Shown piece by piece: positions 50,097 to 53,748 of a stretch of DNA of 64,000 bases (the stretch's first letter is position 1; every line of letters starts with the position of its first letter). Source of the stretch: Acidobacteriota bacterium. Its GTDB lineage: Bacteria > Acidobacteriota > UBA890 > WLXD01. The notes beneath the pieces were generated by a model, which saw only the letters and a list, made by a program, of their open reading frames with translations, made no database searches and was not told the origin of the DNA. Position numbers and translations under genes: made by a program. The stretch is taken from NCBI GenBank assembly GCA_012103255.1, contig WLXD01000004.1:124001-188000 (forward strand), written 5' to 3'.

Positions 50097-51233
50097 CTAC
50101 CCGTCGCGCCCGAGAAGTGCGCGGCGTAGAAGAGACGCCAGTTCGCTCGGCTCCATGCCGTGGTCGTCACTATCGATCACGCGCGTGAGAGCCCAGAGCA
50201 ACTGCCGCCGCACCTCGGGCTCTGTCTCGTTGTCGAGGGCGTCTGCCAGCGCTCGCGTTGCTCCGCTGTCCTCGACCATGCCGAGCGCCCACGCGACCTG
50301 CTCACGAACGTCAGGATCTGCGTCGTTGAGCGCGGCGATCAACACGCCGGTTGCACGCGGACTCTCGATCATCCCGAGACCCCACGCAGCCTGTTCGCGA
50401 ACCTCTTCGTCCGGGTCCTGCAGCATGCGGCTCAGAGGATCGACGCCTTCTACGGCCTCGATCATCCCGAGCGCCCATGCCACCTGCTCCCGCACCGCGC
50501 CGTCCTCGTCATCCACCGCCCCAAGCAGCACGTCGACGCCTGAACGAGCTTCGATCATTCCCAGGGCCCAGGCGGTCTGCTCCCGCACGCCAACAACGTC
50601 ATCGTTGATCGTGCGTCGCAGACCGGGCACGGCTCGCGGCGACTCGATCATCCCCAGACCCCACGCCGCCTCTTCGCGAACTTCGGCATCGCGGTCGTCG
50701 AGCACGTCGACCAGAGCCTCTACCGCGGTCCCCGACTCGATCATCCCCAGAGCCCAGGCCACGCGTGCGCGTACCCGGGCTTCGGTGTCACGGAGGGCGT
50801 CGATGAGAACAGGAACGCTACGCTCGCGTTCGATCAACCCCATGGCGAAGGCGGCGTGCGCCCGTCGCGCCGGGCGATCGCTCTGCAGTGCGGTCTCGAG
50901 GTCGGGAAGTACCTCGGTGTCGAGATCCTCCAGTGCAATTGCGGCCTCGCGCCCCGGCGAGGTCTCGCGCTTGCGCCCGTTCCAGTTGCCCCAGTCGTGA
51001 CACAGGTCGCCCTCGATCGGCGTGTCATCGCCCAGCATTGCCAGAAGCGCGGCCTTGGCAGGCCTTATGTCGGCCGCGCGCATATCGCCAAGTTCACAAG
51101 CGGCCATCGCGCGCGTTCGCGGATCCGAAGACTCGAGCGCGGCGATCCGGTCGTTGTCTTGGCCGAGCGCCGTGGCCGCAAGCGCGAGGAGAAGGGACAG
51201 AGTGAGCGCCGACATCATCAACATGCGTCGCAT
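50097..51233 (-). CDS. exported HEAT-repeat protein sharing repeats with the adjacent M56 sensor peptidase
   Basis: 378 residues with a signal peptide (1-24, ATALGQ). After a leader with two early repeats and a small insert (CHDWGNWNGRKRET) come about eight 31-residue HEAT units, each with the core VREQVAWALGMIE or a close variant (VRARVAWALGMIES, VREEAAWGLGMIES, VREQTAWALGMIEA). The same core occurs in the C-terminal region of the M56 peptidase at 51318. Both are expected in the periplasm. I infer that they interact or bind the same ligand, but this is not shown. It has its own promoter region with a half-site block shared with blaI, and a terminator separates it from the M56 gene. Confidence 0.82.
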   Translation of the reverse strand: MRRMLMMSALTLSLLLALAATALGQDNDRIAALESSDPRTRAMAACELGDMRAADIRPAKAALLAMLGDDTPIEGDLCHDWGNWNGRKRETSPGREAAIALEDLDTEVLPDLETALQSDRPARRAHAAFAMGLIERERSVPVLIDALRDTEARVRARVAWALGMIESGTAVEALVDVLDDRDAEVREEAAWGLGMIESPRAVPGLRRTINDDVVGVREQTAWALGMIEARSGVDVLLGAVDDEDGAVREQVAWALGMIEAVEGVDPLSRMLQDPDEEVREQAAWGLGMIESPRATGVLIAALNDADPDVREQVAWALGMVEDSGATRALADALDNETEPEVRRQLLWALTRVIDSDDHGMEPSELASLLRRALLGRDG

Positions 51234-51257
51234 GAGTATTGATCCTTGTCGCTAAAA

Positions 51258-51278
51258 AATTAGCACTTCGAGTGCTGA
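51258..51278 (-). promoter_or_regulatory. candidate BlaI-type operator for the HEAT gene
   Basis: Half-sites TTAGCAC (51260-51266) and GTGCTGA (51272-51278) around TTCGA. On the minus strand the block GTGCTAATTTT is identical to that in the blaI promoter at 53711-53737. It lies about 30 bases ahead of the HEAT gene's ATG. The half-site spacing differs from the blaI site (5 versus 1 base), so shared control is likely but not certain. Confidence 0.55.
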
Positions 51279-51281
51279 GAA

Positions 51282-51305
51282 AGGCCCGGGCCGGAGCCCG
51301 GGCCT
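51282..51305 (-). terminator. hairpin terminator after the blaI-M56 operon
   Basis: 10-bp stem AGGCCCGGGC / GCCCGGGCCT with a CGGA loop, followed on the minus strand by TTTCTC. It sits 13 bases beyond the M56 stop and ahead of the HEAT gene's promoter region, so the HEAT gene is a separate transcription unit. Confidence 0.7.
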
Positions 51306-51317
51306 GATCCCTAGGAA

Positions 51318-53255
51318 CTAATGCATGATCTGGCTGATCGCCCAGAGGGCCTGCTTGCGGACGCGCTCGGAGTCGTCCTCGACCGCGTCGATCAGAGCTT
51401 CGACAGCTCCCTCGTCCTCGATCATCCCGAGCGCCCAGGCCGCCTGGCTGCGTACCTCCACAGCGGGATCGGTGCCCAGAATCGCCACCAGGCCGGCAAC
51501 CGCGTCACTTGACTCGATCATGCCGAGAGCCCAGGCTGCCTGGCCTCGCACCTCGGCACTGTCGTCTTGAAGCGCCGTCAACAGCGGCGGCACTGCCGCC
51601 GGATCTTCGATCATGCCGAGTGCCCAGACTGCCTGGCCACGCGCGCTGGCGCTCGTTGCGCTCGCAAGCAGATCACCGAGCGCGGGCGCGCCGCGGGGAT
51701 CCTCGATCATGCCGAGCGCCCAGGCCGCCTGGCTGCGAACCGAGTCGCTCGCATAGTTGCGCACCGCCGCAGAAAGGGCATCAACGCCCTCCGAGGACTC
51801 GATCATCCCGAGTGCCCAGGCGGCTTGAGACCTGACAGGGGCGGACTCGTCGTTCGTGACCGCCGCGGACAGCGCGTCGACTCCAGCCGGGTTCTCCATC
51901 ATCCCGAGCGAGTGTGCGGCCTGCTTCCGCATTCCGACATCGGGATCCTGAAGCAGGCGGATCATCGTGTTGACCACGCGTTCGCGCGTAGCCTCGTCCT
52001 GCGACATCGCCGCTGAGACTTCGGCCGGCACGGTGGCCTCAGGCAGCTCCGAGGCCATCGGGCTGGCCGCCAGCGGGTTTGCCTCGGGCTGGGCCTCGGG
52101 CTCGGCCGCAGGAGCCTCGACCGTAGTCGTCTCGGTAGCCTGCGCCGCCGGCGGCGCCCACGGCTGGAATCCAGCGAACAGCGTGGCGAGCCCAAGCAGA
52201 GCCACCGAGACTCCAGCGGATCCACTGCGCGAAACCTGTCGACGGTCGCGCTGGGGATCCAGCGCAGCGAGCAGGCGACCTTCAAGTTGTGATTTGCGAG
52301 CCATCATTACTCCAACAGGGGATAGAGACTGGGCCCGGCCGGAGGCGCGGGCAATTTCAAGCAGATGCCAGGCGTAATCGGCGCCGACCGCGCCGGTCGC
52401 GAGAACCGCGTCGTCGCAGGCGAACTCACGCTCCGCCGCCTGACGCCGGCGAGCGATCCAAACGAGTGGGTTGAACCAGTGCACCGCTGCAGCTGCTGCG
52501 CCGATCAACTGGGCGGCGCAGTCACCGCGCTTCACGTGCGCAAGCTCATGGGTCAGAACGACTTCGCGTCGCTCCTCGTCCCATTCCGCGGACTCGGCAG
52601 GTAGGAGCACGGTGTGCCGTCGAACACCCCAGGCCACGGGCATGTCCACGGCGTCGCTTCGCGCCAGCCGAACCGGCTGAGCAAGCCCCAGCGCAGATCG
52701 CACGCGATCGAGAGTTGCTTGCCACGCGTCGTCCTCGACGTCCGTGGCGCGACGGCTCACGTGCATCGCCGCGAGCGTGGCCCCGATCAAGCGGACCACC
52801 AGCGCGAACGCGCCGACAGCCCAGATCGCCACCAGCATGGTGCCGAGCCCCGGCAACGCCCAGCCACCAGCGGCTTCCGTCGAGCCGGACACGACCTCAG
52901 CGCCGTCCGGCGGGGCACTCTGTTCGTCGGTCGCCTCGAGCGCCGCCGACGCTGCGGGCTCCGCAACGACTCGTTCAGCGGGTTCGATCTGTGCCGGCGC
53001 AGACAGAGGCGCGGTGTCGGTCGGAGTCGACAGCAACGGCACGTGCCACGACGGCACGATCGTGGCTGCGAGCGGCAACGCCAGGAGCGCAGCGAAGGTC
53101 ATCGTCCAAACTCGATGTCGCAACGCTGCCGACTGTCGCCGTAGCGCCAGATCAAACAGAAGTACGGTGGCAACGACCATCGCGCCCTTGAACAGGGTTG
53201 CAACCACGGCTGCCCCGACTGGCGTCAGGGTTGCGCCCCATGCGGCCCCCGTCAT
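51318..53255 (-). CDS. M56 (BlaR1/MecR1-like) membrane peptidase with HEAT-repeat sensor region
   Basis: 645 residues. Membrane helices at about 12-38, 48-68 and 137-160; the cytoplasmic zinc peptidase domain carries HELAH (236-240) and a third-ligand Glu in EREFACDD (near 276); a fourth/fifth helix at 348-366 precedes a Pro/Glu/Ala-rich linker. The C-terminal ~220 residues are HEAT units with core VRSQAAWALGMIE, in place of the penicillin-binding sensor domain of BlaR1. By analogy, a signal on the outer HEAT region would trigger the inner peptidase to inactivate BlaI. The start overlaps the blaI stop by 4 bases. The ligand is unknown; beta-lactam sensing is not supported by any visible PBP motif. 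Confidence 0.88.
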   Translation of the reverse strand: MTGAAWGATLTPVGAAVVATLFKGAMVVATVLLFDLALRRQSAALRHRVWTMTFAALLALPLAATIVPSWHVPLLSTPTDTAPLSAPAQIEPAERVVAEPAASAALEATDEQSAPPDGAEVVSGSTEAAGGWALPGLGTMLVAIWAVGAFALVVRLIGATLAAMHVSRRATDVEDDAWQATLDRVRSALGLAQPVRLARSDAVDMPVAWGVRRHTVLLPAESAEWDEERREVVLTHELAHVKRGDCAAQLIGAAAAAVHWFNPLVWIARRRQAAEREFACDDAVLATGAVGADYAWHLLEIARASGRAQSLSPVGVMMARKSQLEGRLLAALDPQRDRRQVSRSGSAGVSVALLGLATLFAGFQPWAPPAAQATETTTVEAPAAEPEAQPEANPLAASPMASELPEATVPAEVSAAMSQDEATRERVVNTMIRLLQDPDVGMRKQAAHSLGMMENPAGVDALSAAVTNDESAPVRSQAAWALGMIESSEGVDALSAAVRNYASDSVRSQAAWALGMIEDPRGAPALGDLLASATSASARGQAVWALGMIEDPAAVPPLLTALQDDSAEVRGQAAWALGMIESSDAVAGLVAILGTDPAVEVRSQAAWALGMIEDEGAVEALIDAVEDDSERVRKQALWAISQIMH

Positions 53256-53650
53256 CGGGAACCTCCATCTTCGGCGTCGCGAGCACGATCAATCAGATGC
53301 GCAAGGCGATCGAGCTCACCGTGCGATGCCTTCGTGTCCGCGTCGTCGAGGAGCGCGGCCATGATCTGTTCGGACGAACCATTGAACAGTGTGTCGCGCA
53401 GGTGACGTAGCGCCGAGCGCTGCGCGCTGTCCTTCTCGATCGTCGGCGAGTAGACGTAGCGCGGTCCGTCTTCGGAGTGCTGCGCGAAGCCCTTGTCCTC
53501 AAGAATCCGTAGCAGGGCGCGCACGGACGAGTAGCTCGGCGGCTCAGCGAGTTGCTCGCGAACCTCCGCTACGGTCGCCGAGCCGCGCTGGAACAGCACA
53601 TCCATGATCTGCCGTTCGCGCCTGCTGAGCTGATGCCCCAGTGCGTCCAA
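53252..53650 (-). CDS. blaI: BlaI/MecI/CopY-family repressor
   Basis: 132 residues from a TTG start at 53650 with GAGGAGG eight bases upstream. Winged helix: LSRRERQIMDVLFQRGSATVAEVREQL and YSSVRALLRILEDKGFAQH, then the wing GPRYVYSPTIEKDSAQRSALRHLRDTLF and a C-terminal dimerisation region containing the zone cleaved in MecI/BlaI proteins. Coupled to the M56 peptidase gene (4-base overlap), the usual sensor-repressor pair. Its promoter contains a 27-bp dyad in the spacer. Confidence 0.92.
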   Translation of the reverse strand: MDALGHQLSRRERQIMDVLFQRGSATVAEVREQLAEPPSYSSVRALLRILEDKGFAQHSEDGPRYVYSPTIEKDSAQRSALRHLRDTLFNGSSEQIMAALLDDADTKASHGELDRLAHLIDRARDAEDGGSR

Positions 53651-53710
53651 AACTGTCGCCTCCTCGGCTGCCCGGAACCCCGTGGCAGCATTGACTTCTG
53701 TCCTAGTGCG

Positions 53711-53748
53711 AGAAAATTAGCACAGTGCTATTTTTCTAGCAAGGACTT
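53711..53748 (-). promoter_or_regulatory. blaI promoter with operator dyad in the spacer
   Basis: Dyad arms AGAAAATTAGCAC (53711-53723) and GTGCTATTTTTCT (53725-53737) around one A match at 12 of 13 positions. On the minus strand TTGCTA (-35), a 17-base spacer and TAATTT (-10) frame the dyad, so bound repressor would block RNA polymerase. Consistent with BlaI autoregulation. Confidence 0.75.

Follow-up and report, generated by a model that had tools for sequence, protein, structure and literature searches.

A HEAT-repeat sensor and a predicted exported HEAT-repeat output in a BlaI/M56 locus of an Acidobacteriota bacterium

Introduction

Pairs of a BlaI repressor and an M56 membrane peptidase are abundant in environmental bacteria, yet they are understood for beta-lactams only. 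What could such a pair be sensing when the outer part of its peptidase is a solenoid of HEAT repeats, and when a predicted exported protein built of the same repeats is encoded beside it? This question is raised by a locus in a 64,000-nucleotide stretch of an Acidobacteriota genome (the window; assembly GCA_012103255.1, contig WLXD01000004.1), whose minus strand carries at 50097-53741, in the order of transcription, blaI, a gene for an M56-HEAT membrane protease and a gene for an exported HEAT protein. The locus is a variant of BlaI/M56 signalling that is not described in the open papers searched, and its sensor, repressor, operators and output can all be named from the sequence. We propose that it is a self-contained BlaI/M56 switch operating by a bla-type logic, in which the sensor and the sole evident output are homologous HEAT solenoids recognizing a common ligand, a reading that we consider about evenly poised between right and wrong. 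As far as sequence can tell, it is supported by the gene set, the predicted topology, the operators and their insulation, the frozen binding face of the repeats and a number of gene fusions.

Results and Discussion

Gene content and domain architecture

An earlier note on this DNA had described an M56 peptidase with a BlaR1-type core and a HELAH motif, an outer region made of HEAT repeats instead of a penicillin-binding domain, AWALGMIE-type repeats common to this sensor and its exported neighbour, and a composition without a known precedent. All of this held when examined further, and the coordinates and lengths of the three reading frames were reproduced; the span is amended, as its functional part reaches an operator at 53741. 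Translation of blaI most likely begins with the TTG at position 53650, which is preceded within a few bases by a GGAGG (Table 1). In Pfam, the three products match Penicillinase_R (PF03965, 94.1 bits, cut-off 22.6), Peptidase_M56 (PF05569, 136.8 bits over residues 19-328, cut-off 31) and HEAT_2 (PF13646, cut-off 27.7; 160 bits in the sensor and 170 bits in the exported protein), and all complete HEAT units from about residue 474 of the sensor and 154 of the exported protein contain WALGMIE, WGLGMIE or WALGMVE. Neither a transpeptidase nor a beta-lactamase domain was found by Pfam in the locus proteins, and the C-terminal region of the sensor gave HEAT-like repeat families only, with no penicillin-binding or class D lactamase domain. 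The window's genome encodes about nine BlaI-M56 pairs, with HEAT repeats in this one only. No open paper pairing the M56 family or BlaR1 with a HEAT repeat was found, although the domain pairing may still be listed somewhere.

The profile of BlaI orthologues matches the crystal structures of MecI and BlaI (MecI over its full length), including both the winged-helix domain and the dimerisation tail of this family, and the window's protein is 57-65% identical to its counterparts in loci L041-L043 and L050. The M56-core profile matches BlaR1 (8exs) at E 9.9e-10. Here, H236/E237/H240, E277, D281, D245, Y294 and R327 correspond to H201/E202/H205, E242, D246, D210, Y261 and R294 of BlaR1, so that all catalytic residues are retained, including the complete HEXXH...E...D zinc site; the HELAH motif itself is invariant among orthologues. 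The roles of these residues in BlaR1, as well as the direct cleavage of BlaI by BlaR1, have been established (PMC9834060). By analogy with this biochemistry, and from the conserved catalytic residues, we infer that the M56 protein would likewise act by proteolysis of BlaI.

The hydropathy profile of the sensor shows four transmembrane (TM) segments in addition to weaker ones at the N-terminus and within the protease. As the fourth (TM4) has four K/R residues on its inner flank and none on the outer one, the HEAT part is predicted by the positive-inside rule to lie outside the membrane, as the earlier note had supposed, and not in the cytoplasm. The AlphaFold2 (AF2) model agrees in its helices (12-37, 43-66, 137-169 and 344-362), followed by a disordered linker (358-419) and a seven-repeat solenoid (421-644), for most of which the predicted local distance difference test score (pLDDT) is above 90. 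The overall predicted template modelling score of 0.43 does not make for a confident fold, and the relative placement of the domains was not read from the model. A four-TM topology with a C-terminal outer sensor thus is the prediction from both sequence and model.

The third gene encodes a protein predicted from its sequence to be exported and to act as a non-enzymatic output. A hydrophobic N-terminal stretch also begins its orthologues, and its N-terminal family signature (SPGxEAAxAL in the alignment) is accompanied by a Cys pair, spaced by 31-32 residues, which is retained in eight of nine systems. The AF2 model of this protein has a mean pLDDT of 91. Its first matches in both sequence and structure searches of the PDB are artificial alphaRep proteins, which tell its fold, not its function.

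Table 1. Features of the locus, with positions in the window
Feature	Positions	Strand	Basis
blaI, BlaI/MecI-type winged-helix repressor, 132 amino acids, TTG start	53252-53650	-	Penicillinase_R
M56-HEAT membrane protease/sensor, 645 amino acids	51318-53255	-	Peptidase_M56 and HEAT_2
BlaR1-type M56 protease module, residues 19-328, including TM1-TM3	52272-53201	-	Pfam span, 8exs profile match, AF2 helices
HELAH zinc motif, residues 236-240	52536-52550	-	invariant in orthologues, aligned to BlaR1
TM4, residues 344-363	52167-52226	-	hydropathy and charge; AF2 helix 344-362
Flexible Pro/Ala/Glu-rich outer linker, residues 364-420	51996-52166	-	pLDDT <50 over 358-419
HEAT solenoid of the sensor, predicted to lie outside; residues 421-644 with 7 repeats and the concave motif Q..W...M.E	51324-51995	-	AF2, unit profile
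Predicted exported HEAT protein, 378 amino acids, putative output gene	50097-51233	-	HEAT_2 and AF2
Predicted Sec-type signal peptide MRRMLMMSALTLSLLLALAATALG	51162-51233	-	read from sequence; cleavage site predicted
N-terminal signature domain, Cys pair C46/C78, SPGREAAIAL	50889-51155	-	family alignment
HEAT solenoid of the exported protein	50175-50873	-	unit motifs, AF2, unit profile
Putative BlaI operator 1 before blaI, TGCTATTTTTCTAGCA	53726-53741	+	pattern search
Putative BlaI operator 2 before blaI, TGCTAATTTTCTCGCA, 19 bp from operator 1	53707-53722	-	pattern search
Putative BlaI operator before the HEAT gene, TGCTAATTTTTTAGCG	51250-51265	-	zero mismatches to degenerate pattern
Putative intrinsic terminator (GC-rich hairpin and T-rich tail) between M56 and HEAT gene, upstream of the HEAT operator	51277-51305	-	RNA fold

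Putative operators and their insulation

When the upstream sequences in the window were compared with those in L041-L043, the palindrome TGYTAAnTTnTTARCA emerged; it occurs as a tandem pair ahead of blaI and as a single copy ahead of the HEAT gene, matching the earlier expectation that BlaI would bind at the latter promoter. The classical operator of staphylococci is of the TACA..TGTA type; no such dyad was seen in the upstream regions inspected, where this other palindrome is present. The real control for the pattern is provided by its genome-wide match counts. With the last letter set to R and up to two mismatches allowed, the 4.8 Mb of the own genome contain seven matches, three of them in this unit, compared to 23 matches of the reversed pattern. 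The Poisson chance of three matches falling in the unit is ~4e-12 (1e-10 at the density of the control). In the L041, L042 and L043 genomes (each >10 Mb), all matches with at most one mismatch fall within the unit; the switch thus seems to have no targets beyond its own genes and that of the secreted HEAT protein.

The hairpin between the M56 and HEAT genes (RNA fold -29.6 kcal/mol, z -3.6; similar ones are present in L041-L043) parts M56 from the HEAT operator, which would give the exported gene its own controlled start. The sole match of a terminator scan at the HEAT gene overlaps the operator, not the hairpin. Of the systems whose exported gene does not directly follow M56, nine out of nine have an operator before it, including L047 and L136, where the exported HEAT gene has this operator although no blaI-M56 pair is beside it. 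The genome G378 has two operator matches, one at its BlaI-M56 locus and one at a lone HEAT gene. Since the pattern was derived from the other four systems, the independent cases at the HEAT promoter are only L044, L047, L102, L136 and L139. Palindromic operators at the blaI promoter and at the target gene are therefore predicted ones, albeit conserved and genome-specific.

Conservation and distribution of the three-gene unit

The same order of three genes recurs in L041, L042, L043, L102, L105, L139 and L140, and in a diverged form in L046, while in L044 and L050 the unit is truncated by contig ends (several of the compared loci are on short contigs of metagenome-assembled genomes). The conservation of the neighbourhood in relatives, which the earlier note had made a test of its proposal, thus extends to at least seven other genomes. 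The genes flanking the unit in the window are shared by none of the 10 loci tested, which rules out that its synteny is a mere regional conservation. Correlations of protein identity among the three genes are high (0.76-0.92, L046 excluded), mainly due to the L041-L043 cluster.

Across 396 genomes of the phylum, a search with the N-terminal family of the exported protein found it in nine at E <1e-18. In six of these it directly follows blaI-M56-HEAT (four had contributed to the query; the independent cases are G252 and G124), in G258 it is fused to M56, and in G378 the exported HEAT gene stands alone behind two operators. Where this family is fused to an M56 protein as its ectodomain, the match is strong at L138:4620-6752 and weaker at L144:4713-6344 and L062:5574-8255. 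The distribution is patchy, with no match to the exported family in G001 and G002 of the same genus or in G003 of the same family. As a separate observation, two successive exported HEAT genes follow the M56-HEAT gene at L102:8456-9930, the sensor having FALGQIR and the second exported protein WALGAIG.

The concave face of the repeats

In alphaRep proteins the variable positions of the HEAT unit are 18, 19, 22, 23, 26 and 30 (Guellouz et al., PMC3754942), of which, by our own mapping, 22, 23, 26 and 30 correspond to x3, x4, x7 and x11 of VRxxAAxALGxI. As a generic reference we used 111 units from 18 other HEAT proteins, in which the entropies at x4/x7/x11/x13 are 3.27/2.82/3.45/2.61 bits. The corresponding values in the window's clade are as low as 0.86/1.03/1.25/0.60 bits for sensor units and 1.44/0.40/0.61/0.00 bits for exported units, with Q-W-M-E at these positions in nearly every repeat of both proteins. 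The fold and the repeat are thus those of the HEAT_PBS proteins and the artificial alphaRep binders (the best PDB matches), whereas the surface positions, which are diversified in alphaRep and make up the binding face of these designed proteins, are frozen here and common to two proteins of one circuit.

A recent gene conversion as the source of these identical repeats was dismissed because the units of the two genes share just 56% identity in DNA (47% in protein). The WALG motif taken alone was rejected as a proof of common function, W being present in 41% of generic repeats; it is the whole set of positions that carries the argument. The identity of the concave faces within the window's clade favours, at the level of sequence, a common ligand.

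Proposed mechanism and alternative readings

In the proposed switch, BlaI bound at rest to three dedicated operators would repress the blaI-M56 genes and, independently of these, the gene of the exported HEAT protein. The ligand, which is most likely a segment of protein or peptide in extended form, would be met on the outer side of the inner membrane and would dock onto the Q-W-M-E residues lining the concave side of the M56 ectodomain; its engagement would activate the cytoplasmic zinc protease and lead to cleavage of BlaI. The secreted HEAT protein would then become abundant and, through an identical face, bind this ligand as well, whether to sequester it, to chaperone it or to serve as its scaffold; such a capture of the ligand would also shut the signal off. 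Both the identity of the ligand and the activation of the protease by its binding are inferred steps. As the sensor and the secreted protein consist of the same repeats, they probably bind the same partner.

The closest precedents are the BlaI-BlaR1-BlaZ and MecI-MecR1-MecA systems of staphylococci and Bacillus licheniformis, which share with this locus the repressor family, the catalytic residues of the M56 zinc protease, the four-TM topology with an outer C-terminal sensor, the adjacency of the repressor and protease genes, a sensor fold related to the induced exported output and autoregulation (predicted here). They differ in having a penicillin-binding protein or class D lactamase domain in place of the HEAT solenoid, an output other than a non-enzymatic exported HEAT protein and an operator other than TGYTAAnTTnTTARCA (TACA..TGTA in staphylococci), as well as in their lineages (Acidobacteriota and metagenome-assembled Gemmatimonadota here). 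The sensor of BlaR1 resembles class D beta-lactamases (PMC7593790). A common ligand is hence the simplest reading, as the bla sensor is likewise a relative of the beta-lactamase that is induced.

Several observations weigh against this reading. A relative of the exported family in G073 (L137) has neither a BlaI-M56 pair nor an operator nearby. The 57-residue flexible linker between TM4 and the solenoid leaves the coupling to the protease unclear, and the terminator/promoter scan found no sigma-70-like promoter at the HEAT gene. Moreover, WALG alone is common among HEAT repeats, and neither a ligand nor a partner gene is known for the locus. In L102 and L140 the sensors are of the F type and the exported proteins have WALGA, and in L139 the two differ as N/T versus R; with faces that differ in these three loci, identical faces can be taken to mean a shared ligand in the window's clade only.

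The differing faces are also compatible with the foremost alternative, in which the exported HEAT protein binds the M56 ectodomain itself and holds the protease off (or on), so that a stress titrating the exported protein away would free the sensor and induce more of it. The concave faces of two alphaRep HEAT solenoids do bind one another (PMC3754942), and R is the last residue of the sensor face in L102, L139 and L140, against G, D or E in the exported one, a pairing that could be complementary. The exported family is found fused in cis to M56, and the exported gene is the only evident target of the switch. A feedback of this kind has a model in the Cpx system, where CpxP inhibits CpxA. Cpx resembles our locus in combining a membrane sensor with a periplasmic protein that its own pathway induces, which makes feedback possible; its protein families are other ones, a proteolytic repressor mechanism is proposed here, and feedback is for this locus a rival hypothesis only. 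The faces in the window's clade are identical (Q-W-M-E) rather than complementary, and we regard direct contact as unlikely here, though by no means far-fetched. The signalling system postulated in the earlier note, with an exported solenoid and a sensor that bind each other or a common ligand, therefore stands as to the functional tie between the two proteins, for which the fusions and insulated operators argue; as to its two modes of binding, the identical faces favour a common ligand, and the fusions and the differing clades fit mutual binding as well.

An assembly role in place of ligand sensing, where the solenoid would anchor M56 to a polymer or complex of the envelope and the exported protein would be a structural component made on demand, could make good use of the long flexible linker and of periodic identical faces suited to a repetitive polymer. 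Yet assembly alone leaves the dedicated BlaI operators unexplained, the locus has no linked envelope gene, and we hold this version to be improbable. A trace less probable still is that the exported gene is a mere local duplicate of the sensor ectodomain, its repeats being structural filler with no shared role: tandem HEAT arrays do arise and spread readily, units from the two genes show ~47% identity and a concave W is frequent in HEAT repeats generally, but the exported protein brings a conserved N-terminal Cys domain of its own, its gene has its own operator within a set insulated genome-wide, the concave face is frozen and the arrangement is conserved across many lineages. An ordinary beta-lactam resistance locus, to which the BlaI and M56 families might point, is rejected as highly improbable on its domain content, with no penicillin-binding or beta-lactamase domain in M56 or the neighbouring genes examined and with 95.7 bits against the BlaR1 equivalog model of NCBIfam (NF000326, cut-off 400) in a match confined to residues 24-338.

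The proposed common-ligand switch lends itself to experiment: its output is small, predicted to be exported and easy to purify, and could be used as bait for the signal, and the fixed concave face predicts the residues to mutate (W, M, Q and E).

A wider pattern of sensor/output twins

Among 22 other BlaI-M56 loci of the phylum with a long enough M56 protein, there are five whose M56 ectodomain resembles a protein encoded close by, downstream and in the same orientation. In four of the five, including L052 of the window's genome, the repeat is one that we call RIHGV; the fifth (L070) is a weak case of TPR, in which the partner is not the next gene. RIHGV gave no convincing match in Pfam or NCBIfam and appears to be a repeat family not described in these databases. 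The RIHGV pairs of Acidobacteriota (L052, L064, L067 and L106) have the same three-gene layout and homology of sensor and output as the HEAT locus; they differ in that the repeat family is unrelated and the exported gene closely follows M56, with no operator of its own seen. The RIHGV exported family occurs in 59 of the 396 genomes. Among the best 30 of its loci, 11 have an M56 gene in their short flanks, and 10 of these 11 M56 frames carry the repeats; three of the 10 lack a separate exported frame in the flanks.

The same sensor/output layout of the RIHGV pairs makes it possible that the layout is a general one. We tentatively suggest, with somewhat less than even confidence, a general class of beta-lactam-independent twin circuits, in which an M56 protein with a repeat ectodomain would control one exported protein of the same repeats, each pair recognizing a common extracellular ligand, and which would include at least two unrelated folds (HEAT and RIHGV). 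If so, the bla system would be a special case of a broader design in which a sensor copies its own effector, and an exported partner beside such an M56 sensor would provide a handle on what the sensor detects.

Additional observations

At L052 (contig C9 of the own genome, ~160.5-163.6 kb), the M56 ectodomain consists of ~27-residue RIHGV repeats, and the exported protein with the same repeats is encoded immediately downstream. Other BlaI-M56 pairs of this genome (L055 and L056) have a TonB_C or a YNCE-like beta-propeller ectodomain. In G378, a BlaI-type operator precedes a 173-residue frame directly after a short M56 protein of 279 residues (L103:6703-7239); the frame could be another target, or the locus a remnant. 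Finally, just upstream of position 5630 in L136, one frame of the stretch from the operators to the lone HEAT gene translates as YPNPNPNPGPPGA followed by a stop; it is similar to the Asn-Pro tails of the HEAT proteins of L139 and is possibly a remnant of a lost upstream gene.

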